Position numbers and translations under genes: made by a program
The notes under the pieces: model-generated
Database searches by the model: none
Told to the model about the DNA's origin: nothing
The model's input: only the letters and a program-made list of their open reading frames with translations
Part shown: in pieces, positions 4,300 to 62,874 of the stretch
Layout of the letters: each line of letters opens with the position of its first letter
Numbering within the stretch: the first letter of the stretch is position 1
Source: Pedobacter sp. JY14-1
GTDB taxonomy: Bacteria; Bacteroidota; Bacteroidia; Sphingobacteriales; Sphingobacteriaceae
DNA length: 64,000 nucleotides
Assembly: GCF_029269825.1 (NCBI RefSeq)
Contig: NZ_JARJHU010000005.1
Span: 558,001 to 622,000 of the forward strand
Direction of reading: 5' to 3'

Positions 4300-4538
4300 A
4301 GAGTTACTTTAGGCAGCAAATATTAAAAAACAGAAAGGCATACCTTATCCCTGCAATACAAATCAGGTATTAATTCAAAACAATTCTGGCGCGCACGCGT
4401 ATTTATACTGAACGGCAACACCAAACACGCGTTATGTGGTATTAATACTTAATCTGAAACGCCCTATATAGTAAAGTAGACCGCAATGGCTACCTTACAC
4501 TAAAAACTAAAATAGTGTCATCAGAAAAGAAAATAAAA

Positions 4539-5189
4539 ATGTTACGTGTAATATTAGCAGAGGACCATAATATTGTCAGAAATGGCATCCGAATGCTATT
4601 GGAAGCCGATTCAGGTATACACATCTCCGGTGAAGCCACCAACGGCCTTGAAGTGTTAAACCTGCTTGACCAGGGAACAAAAGCCGATGTAATCTTGGCG
4701 GATATCAATATGCCCGTTATGGATGGCATTATGCTGCTCAGAGAGTTAAACAACAGGACTGCAACCCTCCCCGTCCTTTTTCTATCCATGATAGACAATG
4801 AAAAATATGTTGCCCAGGCCTTTAGCGAAGGAGCTTCAGGTTATCTTTTCAAAAATGTAAGTGCCGATGAACTGATGTTTGCCCTCCGGCACGTCAGCGC
4901 AGGGGGGCGCTATATCTGTTCTGAGCTTTCGCTTACCTTACTCGAGAAACTGCTTAAAGACCCCTATCCTTCCAAAAACATATCCGATACACCTATCGAT
5001 TTCTCTGAAAGGGAGTTTGAGATCCTGCATCTTATAGCAGAAGGTATGACCAATCAGGAAATATCGGAAAAGCTTTTTATCAGCAAAAGAACTGTAGAAG
5101 GTCATCGTCAGAGCCTGCTGGAAAAGACAGGTTCCAGAAATACAGCAACCCTTATCAGGTTTGCCATTATGAACCGGCTGATCAGTTAA
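4539..5189 (+). CDS. Response regulator, NarL/FixJ family
   Basis: The receiver domain starts at MLRVILAEDHNIVRNGIR, with the phospho-accepting Asp in VILADINMPVMDG. It is followed by a LuxR-type DNA-binding domain (FSEREFEILHLIAEGMTNQ, then ISKRTVEGHRQSLLEK). I chose the ATG at 4539 (216 residues) because receiver domains normally begin within a few residues of the first beta strand; a GTG at 4515 would add eight residues. It is divergent from the histidine kinase at 3550-4299, its likely partner. A hairpin terminator follows at 5211-5240. Confidence 0.92.
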   Translation: MLRVILAEDHNIVRNGIRMLLEADSGIHISGEATNGLEVLNLLDQGTKADVILADINMPVMDGIMLLRELNNRTATLPVLFLSMIDNEKYVAQAFSEGASGYLFKNVSADELMFALRHVSAGGRYICSELSLTLLEKLLKDPYPSKNISDTPIDFSEREFEILHLIAEGMTNQEISEKLFISKRTVEGHRQSLLEKTGSRNTATLIRFAIMNRLIS

Positions 5190-5589: not shown

Positions 5590-8500
5590 TTATTCAACCG
5601 GTAGCTGTCCTATTCCCTGACCCACAAGCAAAGTATGACCAAGCTTAAACCCAGGATTGAACTTTCGCTTCGCACGAAAACGCAGAACCATTATTTCTTT
5701 GCTGCCGGACAACAATTCCTTTTTGCCGGTATTGACAAATGTCGGGTAGAGCACTTTGCTTCCGTCGGCATGAAGTCTGTCGACCGACAGGTTGTCCATC
5801 GCTGCCATATTAATGGGATCCACCTTCAAAAATTCAATATCTTCAGGATTGTAAGCCAAACTGAAACTCAGGCCATTAATGTTTTTCAGGTTCACACCAG
5901 ATATGACCAGGTCAACTTGCTCGCCTTTCTCGTATACGTCTTTCTGTCCCCCGAGTGTCAGCTGTCCTTCAGCTTTGCCAAAGGGACCGTTTCCTACCCC
6001 GCCCTGCAGTTTTGTAGCAACCGCAGAGACATCATATGCATCGATGACACCATTGACATTAATGTCACCTTTTTCAATATATCCCTCAAAATCAGGGTCA
6101 CCCTTTTTTAACCCGATATAGTTTGAATACGAAATCAAATCCGCTTCATCTATCTTACCATCACTATTAACATCTCCCTGCAGGGCAGCAACAGATCCGG
6201 GGGCCTTAAATACATACAACTCTCTTCCTGACCCAAAATTACCTACAGCGTTATCCACACTTACTTTGATGTACCTGGCCGCAGCACCCGCTGCAAACTG
6301 GAAGACCTTAACAGAATCAGACCGTTTAAGTGCCCACTTACCTGAGTCCGTCCAGTGTTCACGGTCATTACCATAAGAAACATTTGCATTAAGCCAGGTA
6401 CCGTTACCAGCCCCCAGTCTGGGCAGGTATTGAAGCATATTCAACTGGTATACGGCTCCAAGATCAAGTACCAGGTCAAAAGGCACCGCCTTCTGACCAT
6501 ATTCCGTATGCCACATCTTGTTCTGGTCAAAATCAAAGAGTGCCTCAAGGCCTTCGCCATCCTGGCTCTTGGCGCTGGCAGTTGCCGTTATGCCCGGAAT
6601 TGCATATTTAAACGGATCGGCCGCAGTCTTACGCTGGAACCTCAACCAGGGGGAATATCCCTTGCTGTTCACCGCACGTAACTGAAAATGATATATGCTG
6701 TCCGGGACCAGCCCTTCGAAAAGAAAACTGGTATCCTGTATAAGCGTATAACGCATGCCGTCAAACATAACCTCATAAAAGTCGGCATTTGCTATTTTTT
6801 TCCAGCTCGGAGACAAGCTATATGGTGCCGTATCCGTCACGGCACCGGCGGCTTCCGGAAGTTCAAGAGTTCCTTCTTTTTTCAGGTAAGCTTTTCCAGG
6901 TCGGAATACGGCCCCTTCAATTCTTAGTACAATATCACTCCGGGTTACATCAGACGGAGCCAGCCTTACCCTTAATTGCGGATTTCTGATCATCTTCTGT
7001 TTGGCAAACCCACTTCCCGGCGTAGAAAAAAGATTGATATCCGGAGCTTCAATGTAAGTAAATGTATTGGATCTCAGGGTATCACCAGGTTTGATCAGCT
7101 GCCTGGTCAACTTTACCTCTTTTCCACCCATCTTTACACTGACATTTTCAGGTGGCGCGGTGAGATTGACCAGGAACTCTGTAGCCTTCTTCCTGACAAA
7201 TCCCGGATAGTTTCCTTTGGCGGCATGAACGATAACTTCGGCCTTTCCGCCCTTGATACTGGTTTCTATAAACGTCTGTACCCCTTCACCCTGTTTATAG
7301 CGCTCCGTCCTTCCGTCATCATCATATTCCGTGAAACTGCAAGACTTGCCAATGTAAATTTCATAGTACCGTTTTGAAGGATCAATTTCCTTTACATTGT
7401 TACTGGCACTGGTATAGGGAATGATCGCTCCTGCCTTTACAAAGACCGGCAACTTCCACAGGGGAGCTTCAAAGCTGTTTATCACTTGCCCGCCCTCATA
7501 AGCCTCACCAGTCAGGTAATCAAACCAGGTACCCTTCGGAAGGTAGATGTTATGCCGCACATCATTTCCCAGCGAATCTGCGCGTATCTGCCTGTATACA
7601 GGAGCAATGAGAAAGTTCGGCCCGTACATGAATTCGTATTGGGTACCGACACCCTGCGTGTAGCTGTTTCGTTCCTCGAGAAAGATAGCCCTGACCATCG
7701 GAAGACCGTTCATGGCTTCCTTTGCAATACTGTAGGTATAAGGTAAGAGGGCCGATTTCCACTTCAGATAATGCCGGTTAATGGATGCGACCGGCTCACC
7801 GAGTGCCTGAGGATATTTCTCATTTGCTCCCCATCCATCCATATTGAGCTGCATGGGTGTAAATGTCTTCCACTGAAAATCCCTTGTGTTGACCACTGGG
7901 TTACGCCCGCCGAAAATACCGTCCATATCTGAAGAAATATTGGGCTGGCCCGAGAGCCCTGCGCCTATATAGGTCGGGATATGGAACCTGATGTATTCCC
8001 AGTTACCCCCCGTCTGGTCGCCTGTCCATACACCGGCATAGCGTTGTGTGCCTGCCCAGCCGTCAAGTGTAATGATAAAGGGCCTGCTACCACCTCCATA
8101 AACCGGGGTCAGCTTTGCCACATCGCTGATCCCGTGCAAACCAAAAGAATACCCCGATCCTACCCATGCCACATCTGTTTTAAGTACACGCACCCCGGCG
8201 TCCCTGGTCTCTTTGATGATGTCCCGTTGCAGTACTGCACTCAGATTTGGCTTCGGGTACAAGTCAGATTGAGTCCACAAGCCAATTTCAACGCCTTGCC
8301 CCCTTGCATAGTCACCTAGGGATTTCAGGTTGAGTATATTAGAATCCAGTGAAGAAGTCTGTCCGTAGCCGGCACCATAGCCGTCATTTGGCAACAGCCA
8401 GCCAAGTGGCATATCATTTCGTTTATACCTGTCAATTGCCGCCCGGGCAGAAAACTGATAATTGCCGAGCTCCCCGTTCAGCGATTCTTTTATCCCGCCA

Positions 8501-9405: not shown

Positions 9406-9475
9406 GCAAAAAAGATTAGGTCAGCAACAGGCAGAAACAAAGTTATCAACTGTTAAGATACGACAATCAAATATA

Positions 9476-9550
9476 TCTGCACAAACGTTTGCCTCCACCG
9501 CAACCTTCAGGTATTTGGCAGGATTATCAATTTTAGATAACTTGTGCAGA
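9476..9550. promoter_or_regulatory. Inverted repeats between the GH31 and acyltransferase genes
   Basis: TCTGCACAA at 9476-9484 is repeated inverted as TTGTGCAGA at 9542-9550, and a perfect ten-base palindrome CAAACGTTTG lies at 9482-9491. Both sit in the short divergent spacer (9406-9551), where an operator would be expected. No regulator is identified. Confidence 0.3.
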
Positions 9551-57839: not shown

Positions 57840-60110
57840 TCAGTTCGCGCTCAGTTTATAAGTTTTGCCTGCCTGGGTATTGAACCTGTAAACATGGTCA
57901 TCTGCATTACCAGTCTGTTTGACCGCAAAACCTGCTTTAAGTGCATTTGGGCTATGGACTATGCAGGGTCCTCCGGAAAGTGATTTCACAGTAACGGAAA
58001 CGACCTTGCCACTCTTCCACTGCAGATCAGTAACTTCAAAATTACCCCTGGCCCGGAGTCCTTTTACGTACCCGTCTGCCCAGGCATCCGGCAAGGCCGG
58101 AATGAGCTGTAGCTCTCCGGTCTGGCTCTGCAGCAGCATTTCTGCTACACCAGCCACATAACCGAAATTCCCATCGATCTGGAATGGCGGATGCGCACAA
58201 AGTAAATTGGCGTATACGCCGCCGCCTTCATTGTAATCTACACCGCTGCCACCTACAGGTTTAATAAAGTTCTGTATAATCCGGTAAGCGTGATTGCCGT
58301 TCTGTAACCTGGCCCAGAAATTAACCTTCCAGGCCATGGACCAGCCGGTTGACTCATCGCCTCTTGCCTCCAGGCTTATCTTTGCCGCCTTAGCGAGTTC
58401 AGGCGTCTTTATCGTGCTGATCTGCTTTCCGGGATGCAGCGCAAATAAATGTGAGGCATGCCTGTGTCTGTCATTCGGGTCATCCCGATCGGTCTCCCAT
58501 TCCTGCAATTGTCCCCATTTACCAATCTTAGGTCCCAGCAGATGTGCCCTAAGGTCTGCTATATGGTCACGATAAGCTTTGTCCACTTTCAGCACGTCAG
58601 CGGCGGCAATATAATTGGTAAACAAATCATAGATGATCTGCTGGTCATAGCTGACGCCGTCTTCTGTGGGTCCATGTTCAGGTGACCAGCCATTTGGCGC
58701 TACCAGCACGCCATCAGGGCGTCTTTTCAGGTGGTCATCCCAGAATTCCGATATTTCCTTCAGCAAGGGATACCCATATTGTTTCAGATAAACCAGGTCT
58801 TTGGTAAAGGCATAATGTTCCCATACATCCTGCACATACCAGGCACTGCCCGGTGTGTTCCACAAAAAGCTCTCTCCGCCAAAAATATTGTTCTCCGTCT
58901 TCACGGTCCAGCCCCTTCTACCCGGGTATTCCTTCTGGGTATTGGCTTTTTTAACCTCGCGCATACTATTGATATAGTCGAGGTAAGGGAAATGACATTC
59001 AGAAAGGTTCGTCGGCTCTGCCAGCCAGTAATTCATCTGGATATTGATATTCGAATGATAATCGCTTCTCCATGGCGGCGTATTGCTGTTGTTCCAGAGT
59101 CCTTGCAGGTTTGCCGGTAAGCCGCCTTTTCGAGAAGAACTGATCAGCAGGTATCTTCCGTAATAGAACAGCATTTCTTCGAGTCCATGGTCGGTCGCCT
59201 GCTTATATTGCGCGAGACGCTTATAAGTAGGTAACGATTGTTGCGCAGAAGCCGTCTGTCCCAGACTAAGCGAGACCCTTCCGAAAAGCGACTGGTAATC
59301 CTTCAGGTGGGCAGCTTTCAAAACCTCATATTTTTTGGATGACGCCACCGCGAGTGCTGCTTTCACTTTAGGACCGGGCGCTGCGCCACGCCAGAATTGG
59401 CCACGCTTATTGCTGTAATCGGTTCCGGCTGTCAGGAATACGGTAAAAGCGTTTGCATTGCGGATATTCAGCTGAAAGCCTCCTTTGCCGTCCGGTTCTA
59501 CAATATGTGTACCGCCTTCTACCTTCACGCCAAGATTGGCCTGATAGGTAAGCCCGTTTTCAAGTCTTCCTCCGATCTGCAGGCCAAGCCCGGAGGCTGC
59601 AACTACGGCGCCATGCGCATCCTTTAACCTGATCTTTACCGAATAAGCATCCTTTGTGCCCGAAGTGTACCTGAGCACCATAGCCTTGTCAGGAAAGCTG
59701 CAAAAATATTCTCGTTTGTAGGGAATACCGCTGAGTGTATAGCTAACTGTCTGTATGGCCTGCCCCAGGTTCAGTACCCTTTTATAATCCCCAGGTACCG
59801 CCAGCCCTGAATCCAGGCCTGCAAAATCAATATAGATGTCGCCGAAAGCCTGGTAAGCACCTGTTTCCTGCTCATCTCCAGTCCAGAGGCTCATCTCATT
59901 AAACTGAATATGCTCCTGGTGCAGTCCGCCGAAAACCATTCCTCCCAGACGGCCGTTACCCATTGGATAGGCATCTGTCATCCATTGCCGTGCAGGCTTG
60001 TCATCCCATATGGTCTTGTTCTGTGCGAGGGCGCTTTCATGCAACGTCCACACCACAAAAAAAATCAAGGCAAAAAGCCCTTTAATAAGCGAAAATGTCT
60101 TTGGTTTCAT
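57840..60110 (-). CDS. Alpha-L-fucosidase, glycoside hydrolase family 95
   Basis: A 756-residue exported enzyme with a signal peptide ([20 protein letters not shown]). The N-terminal domain shows [16 protein letters not shown] at 48-62. The (alpha/alpha)6 barrel has the catalytic asparagines in NINIQMNYW (354-362) and the acid Glu in GWSPEHGP (Glu478). GH95 enzymes are inverting and remove terminal fucose, mostly alpha-1,2-linked; some act on L-galactose. It is the first gene of a unit with the FAD oxidoreductase, and divergent from a histidine kinase. TTAATAT/ATATTAA arms (60131-60137, 60165-60171) lie in the spacer and could be an operator. Confidence 0.93.
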
Positions 60111-60264: not shown

Positions 60265-61701
60265 ATGCAGACCAGACTGGAACTTTATCAAAAGGTAACA
60301 CCTTTGGCCAGACTTGGAATTTGGGAACGAAAATTACAGACCGGAGAGGTGTTCTGGAACGAGGTCATCAGGGACATTTACGAAGTATCGGAAGATTTCA
60401 ATCCTGTATATGAGATCACGCTGAGTTTTTACCAGGACCAGAGGCAGCTTACTGAAATGATAGACCGGGTGATCCGAACCGCGGGACCTGAGACCGGCAA
60501 CTTCCTGATACGCACCGCAAAAGGTAATTACAAATGGGTAAAAATAAGGGTCAATGCCTGCCATGACCAGGGACAATGTACATCCACATTCGGCACGCTG
60601 GAAGATGTGACCGATGAGGTCAATACACTGCGCCAGCTCGACAATATCATTAAGAGCACCCGGGTAGGCACCTGGGAATGGAACATAGAGACCGGTTTCA
60701 TGACCTGCAACAAAAGGGCTGCGGATATCCTCGGCTATGATCATGAAGCCATACAGGGTGAAATGCTACAGAACTGGCAGCGGCTGCTCCATCCCAGGGA
60801 CATGGACGTCTTCAATGCCCAGTTGCAGATCTGCTTCAACCGGGAAAAAAAATACTTTGCGGCCGAATGCCGGATGCGCCATGATTCCGGAAAATGGCTT
60901 TGGATAGAGATCAGGGGAAAAGTCGTCCAATGGAATGGCAATACACCTGTATATATGCTCGGGACCTTTGCGAACATTCATGAGCGTAAGATCCTGGAAG
61001 AAGAAAGGGAACAAACACTAGGTATCATCAGAGAACAAAACAACCGCCTGATGAATTTTGCCCATATTGTTTCCCATAATCTCAGATCGCATACCGGCAA
61101 TATCCAGATGCTCCTGGAGGTCCTGGATTTTGAAAAAGATGAAGCAGAGAAGGAAAAACTGCTCGGTATGCTGCATACCAATGCCACTAACCTGCAGGAA
61201 ACGCTGTCCCATCTCAACGACACGATCAAGATCTCAGATACCGGCGCCAGGTATGTAAAAATCATCAATCCACACAGTGAGATCAGAAAAGTGACCACCG
61301 TATTGTCGCAATCGATACATTCATCAGGAGCGGAGATCAATATCGACGCGGACCCTGAGCTAAATATAAACTACGATCCGGCTTATTTCGAAAGCATACT
61401 GCTTAACCTCATCAGTAATGCCATTAAGTATCGTGACCGGAGCAGACAGCTCAGGATCCGTATCCGTTGCCGGGCATCTGGCGGCAGCTATCTCCTGGAA
61501 GTAGAGGATAACGGCCTGGGGATCGATCTGGAAAAAAACGGGCATAAACTCTTCGGCATGTACAAAACCTTTCATGGCAATGAAGATGCACGGGGTATCG
61601 GCCTGTTCCTGGTCAAAAACCAGATTGATGCCATGGGTGGCAGTATACACATAGACAGTACACCAGGGCAAGGCACCAGATTTAAAATCCATATCATATG
61701 A
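60265..61701 (+). CDS. PAS domain sensor histidine kinase
   Basis: A 478-residue soluble kinase from the ATG at 60265; the frame is open for 31 more codons, but a TATCTTCC box at 60224-60231 favours the later start. Two PAS/PAC units are visible (ARLGIWERKLQTGEVFWNEV; TRVGTWEWNIETGFM with ADILGYDHEAI). Next come the HisKA-like phosphoacceptor helix AHIVSHNLRSHTGNIQMLLE and an HATPase domain (NLISNAIKYR, EDNGLGIDL, GIGLFLVKNQ). No membrane segment. Its stop overlaps, as ATGA, the start of a receiver gene that is now a wreck (61698-61828), so this kinase has probably lost its partner. Confidence 0.9.
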   Translation: MQTRLELYQKVTPLARLGIWERKLQTGEVFWNEVIRDIYEVSEDFNPVYEITLSFYQDQRQLTEMIDRVIRTAGPETGNFLIRTAKGNYKWVKIRVNACHDQGQCTSTFGTLEDVTDEVNTLRQLDNIIKSTRVGTWEWNIETGFMTCNKRAADILGYDHEAIQGEMLQNWQRLLHPRDMDVFNAQLQICFNREKKYFAAECRMRHDSGKWLWIEIRGKVVQWNGNTPVYMLGTFANIHERKILEEEREQTLGIIREQNNRLMNFAHIVSHNLRSHTGNIQMLLEVLDFEKDEAEKEKLLGMLHTNATNLQETLSHLNDTIKISDTGARYVKIINPHSEIRKVTTVLSQSIHSSGAEINIDADPELNINYDPAYFESILLNLISNAIKYRDRSRQLRIRIRCRASGGSYLLEVEDNGLGIDLEKNGHKLFGMYKTFHGNEDARGIGLFLVKNQIDAMGGSIHIDSTPGQGTRFKIHII

Positions 61702-61828
61702 ACATGAAGCGATTACCTTCCATGTTTATTGTAGACGACGCCCGCAAGCAGCCGAATATCCACAAGTGAGTAATTTTTATATCAAACCCATCTCACAGGC
61801 AACGCTTGTCGAAATCCTGCAATTGTAG
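61698..61828 (+). pseudogene. Remnant of a single-domain response regulator
   Basis: The ATG at 61698 overlaps the kinase stop as ATGA. The first frame reads MNMKRLPSMFIVDDARKQPN and stops at 61767-61769. In another frame SNFYIKPISQATLVEILQL runs to a TAG at 61826-61828. The first part has the FIVDD beta strand and acidic pocket at the start of a receiver; the second has the YIKPIS...LVEIL end, with the conserved Lys-Pro. About 80-90 codons that should carry the phospho-accepting Asp are missing, and a frameshift separates the pieces. Normal receivers have about 120-130 residues. This is a deletion derivative and cannot be phosphorylated. Confidence 0.72.
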
Positions 61829-61839
61829 TAACTTGCCGT

Positions 61840-62874
61840 ATGGCCAATAAACTACCCACACTGAAAGAAATTGCTAAAAACCTCGGTTTATCGGTATCTA
61901 CTGTATCCAGAGCCCTGCACGACCATCCTACCATAGGGCTCACGACCAGGCAAAAGGTAAAGAAGATGGCAGAGGACCTTAACTATGAGCCCAATCAGAG
62001 CGCAATTTTCTTCCAGATGGGGAAAACATTTACTATAGGTGTCATTCTTCCAGAGCTGTCAGAAGCATTTTTTTCCGCTGTGACTACGGCTATTGAGGAA
62101 ACCGCCTATAAAAAAAACTATACAGTATTGCTGGCCCAGTCTCATGATGACGAAAAAAAAGAACGGGAACTGGTAGAAAAAATGAAAAACAACCGGATTG
62201 ACGGACTACTGGTTTCACTAGCCAAAAGCACCAGTTCTTTCGACCATTTCGAGAGACTTCAGAAATATGACATACCCGTCGTTTTCTTTGACCGTATCCC
62301 CCCCTTGCCTAATATCCACTCGGTTTCCTGCAATATTGAAACCGGGACCGTCGAAGCGGTGAATTACCTGCTCAAAAAGGGCCATCGTACCATTGGCATG
62401 ATCAACGGGCCAAAGACCCTGTTTGCCTCCGGTGAGCGTAAGGAGGGTTATATTAAGGCTATGCAAAAAAACCGGCTTAAATTTGACCCCACGCTTGTAC
62501 TTAATTGTGATCTTACAGAAACCGGAGCGTCAGGTGCTTTGAATACGCTGCTGAACCATAAGCGAAAAGTAACGGCCATTGTTACTTTTAACGATTATAT
62601 TGCGCTGTTTATCATGAAGCACCTGCGCGCCCTTAACCTGACCGGACAGGAAAAACCTGAAATTGTCAGTTATGCCAACCTGCCGCTCATCCACTACATT
62701 GAGCATGTACCCGTAGCTACGGTAGAACAGTTCCCCTATCTTCAGGGACAACGGGCTACCGAAGTTCTTCTGGACCTGCTATCCAGAAAGGACAGGAACG
62801 ATCAGCAACCCGCCGCCTATTACAATATCGTTATAGAGTCCCAGCTTATTGAGTCTGGAAAGACCGATCAATAA
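61840..62874 (+). CDS. LacI family transcriptional regulator
   Basis: A 344-residue repressor. The N-terminal helix-turn-helix TLKEIAKNLGLSVSTVSRAL is followed by the hinge NYEPNQSAIFFQMGKTFTIG and a periplasmic-binding-protein-type sugar domain (VILPELSEAFFSAVTTAIEE, VFFDRIPPLPNIHSVSCNIE). It presumably controls carbohydrate genes nearby, such as the GH95 and GH109-like genes. It overlaps the convergent GH109-like gene by seven bases. Confidence 0.92.
   Translation: MANKLPTLKEIAKNLGLSVSTVSRALHDHPTIGLTTRQKVKKMAEDLNYEPNQSAIFFQMGKTFTIGVILPELSEAFFSAVTTAIEETAYKKNYTVLLAQSHDDEKKERELVEKMKNNRIDGLLVSLAKSTSSFDHFERLQKYDIPVVFFDRIPPLPNIHSVSCNIETGTVEAVNYLLKKGHRTIGMINGPKTLFASGERKEGYIKAMQKNRLKFDPTLVLNCDLTETGASGALNTLLNHKRKVTAIVTFNDYIALFIMKHLRALNLTGQEKPEIVSYANLPLIHYIEHVPVATVEQFPYLQGQRATEVLLDLLSRKDRNDQQPAAYYNIVIESQLIESGKTDQ

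Follow-up and report, generated by a model that had tools for sequence, protein, structure and literature searches.

When a histidine kinase gene is followed by a short stretch that resembles a receiver domain at both of its ends and nowhere between, has a receiver gene been lost there, and what has become of the kinase? This question is raised by a locus of Pedobacter sp. JY14-1, in which positions 61698-61828 had been predicted from the DNA alone to be the start and the end of a receiver joined to each other, with most of the middle missing and a frameshift. All positions refer to the window, the whole stretch of 64,000 nucleotides of contig NZ_JARJHU010000005.1 that was analysed. Many orphan kinases have been described in marine bacteria (PMC6365647), and single-domain and orphan receivers have been described as well (PMC12471899). 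The kinase family of the window is not treated in the available parts of these two papers, and a literature search on titles gave none on this family among the matches listed. Both ends of a receiver gene are present in the window, the middle is missing, the frame switches between the ends, and orthologous loci hold the gene intact. With considerable confidence we read 61704-61828 as a pseudogene of a single-domain (CheY/Spo0F-like) receiver co-encoded with the kinase, in which a deletion of about 265 bp left the kinase orphaned at its own locus.

Two ends of a receiver gene in different frames

The stop codon of the kinase occupies 61699-61701, and two ATG codons lie at this end of the gene, one at 61698 that overlaps the stop as ATGA and one at 61704, 2 nt past it. 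Read from 61698, frame 0 gives MNMKRLPSMFIVDDARKQPNIHK up to a stop at 61767-61769; this mechanical ORF of 23 codons (61698..61769, plus strand) is cut early by the frame switch. The 5' piece of the receiver remnant (61704..61739, plus strand) reads MKRLPSMFIVDD and runs from the start through the N-terminal acidic pair. The 3' piece (61739..61828, plus strand; the exact junction is approximate) lies in another frame and reads RPQAAEYPQVSNFYIKPISQATLVEILQL, closed by a TAG stop at 61826-61828; it contains the conserved K-P region (VSNFYIKPIS). Neither piece is interrupted by a stop codon. What is left of a single-domain receiver thus amounts to its first 12 and its last ~29 codons, which lie in differing frames, with ~88 codons (~265 bp) absent between them by comparison with ortholog receivers. 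Gone with this whole segment are the phosphoacceptor aspartate, which relatives have within the motif LLDLNMP, and the Ser/Thr strand. On these points the sequence is as originally described, and both ends align to the receivers of orthologous loci.

Sequence pieces this short call for a comparison with the rest of the window. A receiver profile of 131 positions was built from 73 receivers found behind related kinases. Run against all six frames of the entire window, it recovered the 3' part at E = 0.0011 over profile positions 102-128; this was the second-ranked hit, the first being a receiver-like ORF at 4458-5186. A joint scan then looked for a receiver start (12 residues) with a receiver end (24 residues) no more than 400 nt beyond it, and scored 2163 ATG starts. 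The ATG at 61704 ranked top with 63.2 bits. The other seven of the top eight, which all use the same 3' part, reached 28.4 bits or less; as a positive control, the intact receiver of the family elsewhere in the genome scored 76.1 bits. With 61704 far above every other start scored in the window, a chance match is rejected. The receiver end of this best match lies 44 nt past the 61704 start and hence in the other frame.

The same scan bears on where the receiver gene began. Its start part scored +17.5 bits at 61704 and -20.0 at 61698, and in the family register MKRLPSMFIVDD at 61704 corresponds to MKKLDIACIIDD in the ortholog L138. Since the best joint match also falls at 61704, this ATG is more likely the receiver start than 61698. 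The ATGA overlap named in the original prediction does exist at 61698, but it is probably not where the receiver started. Among relatives, the start was placed at an ATGA overlap in 12 of 74, a count that leans upwards because our script chose the nearest ATG.

Three of four orthologous kinases carry an intact receiver at the same place

Relatives of the kinase were compiled as 98 loci: eight from its own genome, the best 80 of 579 matches (one genome per species) and ten from 145 genomes of the genus; two genomes occur twice in this set. A receiver match was found behind the kinase in 74 of the 98 loci, in one of them split over two frames, with a median length of 133 aa over all 74; in 73 loci a receiver of 112-167 aa stands right behind the kinase. 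When six distant paralogs from the kinase's own genome (L003-L008) are set aside, the remaining 92 loci comprise 73 with an intact receiver, two with a broken one (the window locus, L001, and L070) and 17 with none. A search of 399 genomes of the same family, a subset of a larger group, yielded closer kinases from another genus. Four of these, L138, L140, L141 and L142, form a group with the window kinase in a tree built on the C-terminal 360 residues (support 99/99).

Three of the four orthologous kinases (L138, L140 and L141) carry an intact 133-aa receiver directly behind them, after a gap of 5 nt in L141 and 11 nt in L138 and L140; the remnant occupies the same place, after a gap of 2 nt. 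It is this correspondence that identifies the remnant as a receiver pseudogene. The receiver of L138, like the one that remains on contig C3 of the window genome, is 133 aa long and has PF00072 as its sole Pfam match, as in REC-only single-domain response regulators of the Spo0F/CheY/DivK type. In contrast to such regulators, the remnant is without ~88 of 133 codons, is frameshifted and makes no working receiver. We sought a sister strain and found none, the best kinase identity in other genomes being 55% over part of the length. Two points of the original prediction are supported by the three orthologs: the stretch is what remains of a receiver gene, and the kinase's own local partner is gone.

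A single deletion would suffice to produce this arrangement. Its limits would lie immediately past the N-terminal acidic pair and immediately ahead of the K-P loop, so that roughly codons 13-100 were removed and the flanks fused in different frames. The aspartate on which receivers are phosphorylated lies in the portion that is missing here, so any product could not accept phosphate, and the kinase is consequently an orphan at its own locus. As far as the sequence can tell, a working receiver from 61698-61828 is impossible.

The age of the event is less clear-cut than the word "recent" in the original prediction implied. Over its 12 residues the 5' piece is identical to the three ortholog receivers at 5-6 positions, whereas the intact orthologs share 11-12 of 12 among themselves. 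Over the 29 residues of the 3' piece the corresponding values are 13-14 for the remnant and 15-22 among the orthologs (15/29 for L138 and L140, 22/29 for L138 and L141). The 3' piece thus looks hardly more drifted than working genes, and the 5' piece looks more drifted than any intact ortholog. The absence of stops in either piece and a 3' identity near that of the L138-L140 pair speak for a recent change; the 22/29 of L138 and L141 and the drift of the 5' piece speak against it.

Possible partners of the kinase and recurrent absence of the receiver

As with orphan histidine kinases in general, no intact receiver gene adjoins the window kinase; unlike them, it is still followed by a visible vestige of the lost partner, from which the route to orphanhood can be read. 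If it still signals, its likeliest partner would be the only close receiver of the family that the genome still has (C3:251917-252315). This receiver belongs to a paralogous pair (L002/L130), whose kinase is 42% identical to that of the window and has the intact 133-aa receiver behind it. It may serve both kinases, so that the local receiver was dispensable and its deletion tolerated. Sharing of this kind is the most probable redirection of the signal, but on the sequence comparisons we put it forward only tentatively, decay of the whole module (see below) being its main rival. The C3 receiver is the only one in the genome at E <= 1e-25 and is 69% identical to the L138 receiver, an ortholog of the lost one. 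In the docking region (residues 258-330 by our own assignment) the window kinase is as close to its paralog, which retains its own receiver (59% identity), as to the four orthologs (58-63%); to the latter its PAS regions are less similar, at 45-52%. In G374, another genome, three such kinases (E <= 1e-60) stand against a single such receiver (E <= 1e-25).

Against sharing stands the distribution of these receivers. Among 22 genomes with such kinases, 15 have a receiver at E <= 1e-25 anywhere and seven have none, including one (G097) that is only 80% complete; the kinase can therefore survive without such a receiver. The partners could instead be receivers of lower identity (35-37%), which remain in the window genome and, at a laxer limit, are present in G097 and in G282.

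The receiver is absent behind other kinases of the family too. The fourth ortholog, L142 (L156, 6681-6812 and 6813-8654), has the gene order of L138 (compared by eye from ORF starts) without the receiver; the profile finds nothing behind its kinase, and the gap of 132 nt holds no receiver piece to the eye. As L138, L140 and L141 all have the receiver, a separate loss in L142 is the simplest reading. Two further kinases, L094 and L096, have none behind them and a relative (L014/L095) has one, which fits a loss and a late gain equally. Remnants were sought in those loci of L001-L098 that have no full-size receiver, 25 in all, and matches appeared only in the window locus and in L070. The latter, from an uncultured Psychroserpens (kinase stop at 7425), has a receiver split over two frames (profile positions 1-40 and 42-129) and represents either another broken receiver or a sequencing fault. 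In G168 (C19:671571-673601) the receiver is encoded in front of the kinase, so that "none behind" is not always "none beside".

The pseudogene is confirmed and is ordinary in kind; mildly surprising are the absent or broken receivers behind several kinases of the family and the accompanying loss of a sensor domain. One may speculate, at somewhat lower confidence than for sharing, that the adjacent receiver of this family is a detachable part that is lost repeatedly while the kinase core stays, made good by a shared receiver or by an unrelated partner. The window kinase would then be leaving a one-to-one pairing for a network with a common receiver or partner, and changing its sensor make-up along with it. 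Taken alone, the locus is a case of ordinary gene decay in one species. Together with intact orthologs for comparison and a separate absence in its nearest group, it becomes a readable example of a paired kinase turning orphan, and would make it possible to test directly whether a kinase deprived of its receiver turns to that of a paralog.

The kinase and its missing middle PAS domain

The kinase in front of the remnant (60265..61701, plus strand) is a PAS-PAS histidine kinase of 478 aa with Pfam matches to PAS_3 and HATPase_c (PF02518, residues 371-477, E = 1.1e-19); HisKA has no match in Pfam, and the H-box reads SHNLRSH. Patterns for the H, N, G1 and G2 boxes all match. These strict patterns proved too narrow for the family, flagging 23 of 102 kinases, many with receivers, and were used only for the window kinase. 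Conservation was judged on the 49 columns of the catalytic part that are at least 90% conserved among 102 distinct family kinases. The window kinase keeps 48 of the 49, and the median deviation in the family is 1. Mean deviations are 1.44 in the 27 kinases without a receiver behind (the window kinase and L070 included) and 0.96 in the 75 with one. In the ortholog L142 a glycine of the second G-box is changed (GICLF). Because its catalytic core is kept, the window kinase most likely still signals; it would probably still autophosphorylate.

Outside the core the gene is altered. Between residues 122 and 123 of the window kinase, all 12 clade relatives (two of them identical) have 134 further residues, a middle PAS domain, and the junction after residue 122 (60625..60636, plus strand) is in frame. 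The ORF is accordingly short, 478 aa against 607-621 aa in the clade relatives. In four relatives Pfam places PAS domains at about residues 130-245 and 283-370; the window kinase has the N-terminal PAS domain and the counterpart of the latter of these. Two PAS domains are present in the paralog L002 as well, but these are the first and the middle one, and it lacks the last. Given that all 12 clade relatives hold the middle domain and that L002 keeps it while lacking the last, the combination of first and last PAS domain in the window kinase is best explained by a second loss within the same module, this one in frame. The statement that the kinase remains intact is thus accurate for the catalytic core and fails for the protein as a whole.

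These changes leave room for a less favourable view, that the entire kinase-receiver module is decaying, the sensor domain having been lost before, with or after the receiver and the kinase being functionless and on its way out. Within its group of five, the window kinase sits on the longest branch, at 0.79, the others measuring 0.11-0.36. Its identity to the orthologs is 58-63% in the docking region and 49-58% in the ATPase region, and the pairs of orthologs compared share 66-81% in the docking region and 58-70% in the ATPase region, in both cases more than it does. The drift of the 5' receiver piece and a position for which the fetched loci show no conserved linkage point the same way. Yet 478 codons stand without a stop, and nearly all conserved columns are retained. 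Moreover, the PAS domain dropped out in frame from between two domains, as happens in ordinary domain reshuffling, in a family that has other two-PAS kinases of the L002 type. Decay of the whole module could be under way, but we consider it unlikely, a little more so than the sharing of a receiver.

A further alternative is an artefact of assembly or sequencing, with a receiver that is intact in the cell. In its favour, the genome stands in nine contigs. Against it, some 265 bp would have had to be dropped inside a contig of a genome that is 99.67% complete, and the drifted 5' piece fits an unconstrained gene better than a working one; we regard an artefact as very improbable.

The surroundings of the kinase and the fucosidase gene

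No intact receiver gene adjoins the kinase. On one side lies, divergently, the gene of a GH95 glycoside hydrolase, the "fucosidase" of the original prediction (57840..60110, minus strand; Pfam Glyco_hydro_95_cat, E = 1.4e-159), and on the other a LacI-family regulator gene (61840..62874, plus strand; Pfam LacI and Peripla_BP). The regulator gene begins 11 nt past the end of the remnant, a position between two genes in which the 23-codon ORF might be a functional micropeptide or a leader of lacI; we reject this as extremely improbable, the short form not having been seen behind any other kinase of the survey or the orthologs and the sequence being accounted for by its likeness, in two frames, to a complete homologous receiver.

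The receiver loss had further been taken as a regulatory change in a fucosidase locus, and this part of the prediction found no support. The orthologous kinases have neighbours that differ from those in the window, and no GH95 match appeared in the surrounding 15 kb fetched for each of them, four in all. Of 145 genomes in the genus, 115 have a match to lacI, mostly at 60-69% identity. The surroundings of lacI were fetched for seven of the 114 other genomes with a match; in all seven it occurs together with a GH109-type gene, adjacent to it in five, and no such kinase was found within the 14 kb fetched. A conserved fucosidase circuit is therefore rejected, and the kinase is tied to fucose use by its position in one genome only. 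In Xanthocytophaga, the ORF downstream of one kinase of this family (L040; stop at 7380) presumably encodes a GH29 fucosidase, judged by eye.

The regulator gene itself may have changed its control. Of the 19 relatives compared (from the 114 with a match), 10 (L100-L108 and L117), among them the nine closest, have a palindrome, CAAACGTTTG, in the 300 nt ahead of lacI, which we take to be a LacI-type operator; one of the nine relatives without it had only 115 nt of upstream sequence. In the window the palindrome was not found upstream of lacI (61540-61840), and lacI follows the kinase and the receiver remnant, which suggests that lacI may have given up its own control and become part of the transcript of the kinase. 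The pattern TTTG-N17-23-TANNTTTG, presumably the Bacteroidota promoter, was not found between 60111 and 61840, and scans for sigma-70 promoters and terminators gave results near chance level. Over the whole window this pattern occurs seven times, against 2.0 expected by shuffling. The only exact copy of the CAAACGTTTG palindrome in the window lies at 9482-9491, beside a promoter-like match at 9438-9471.
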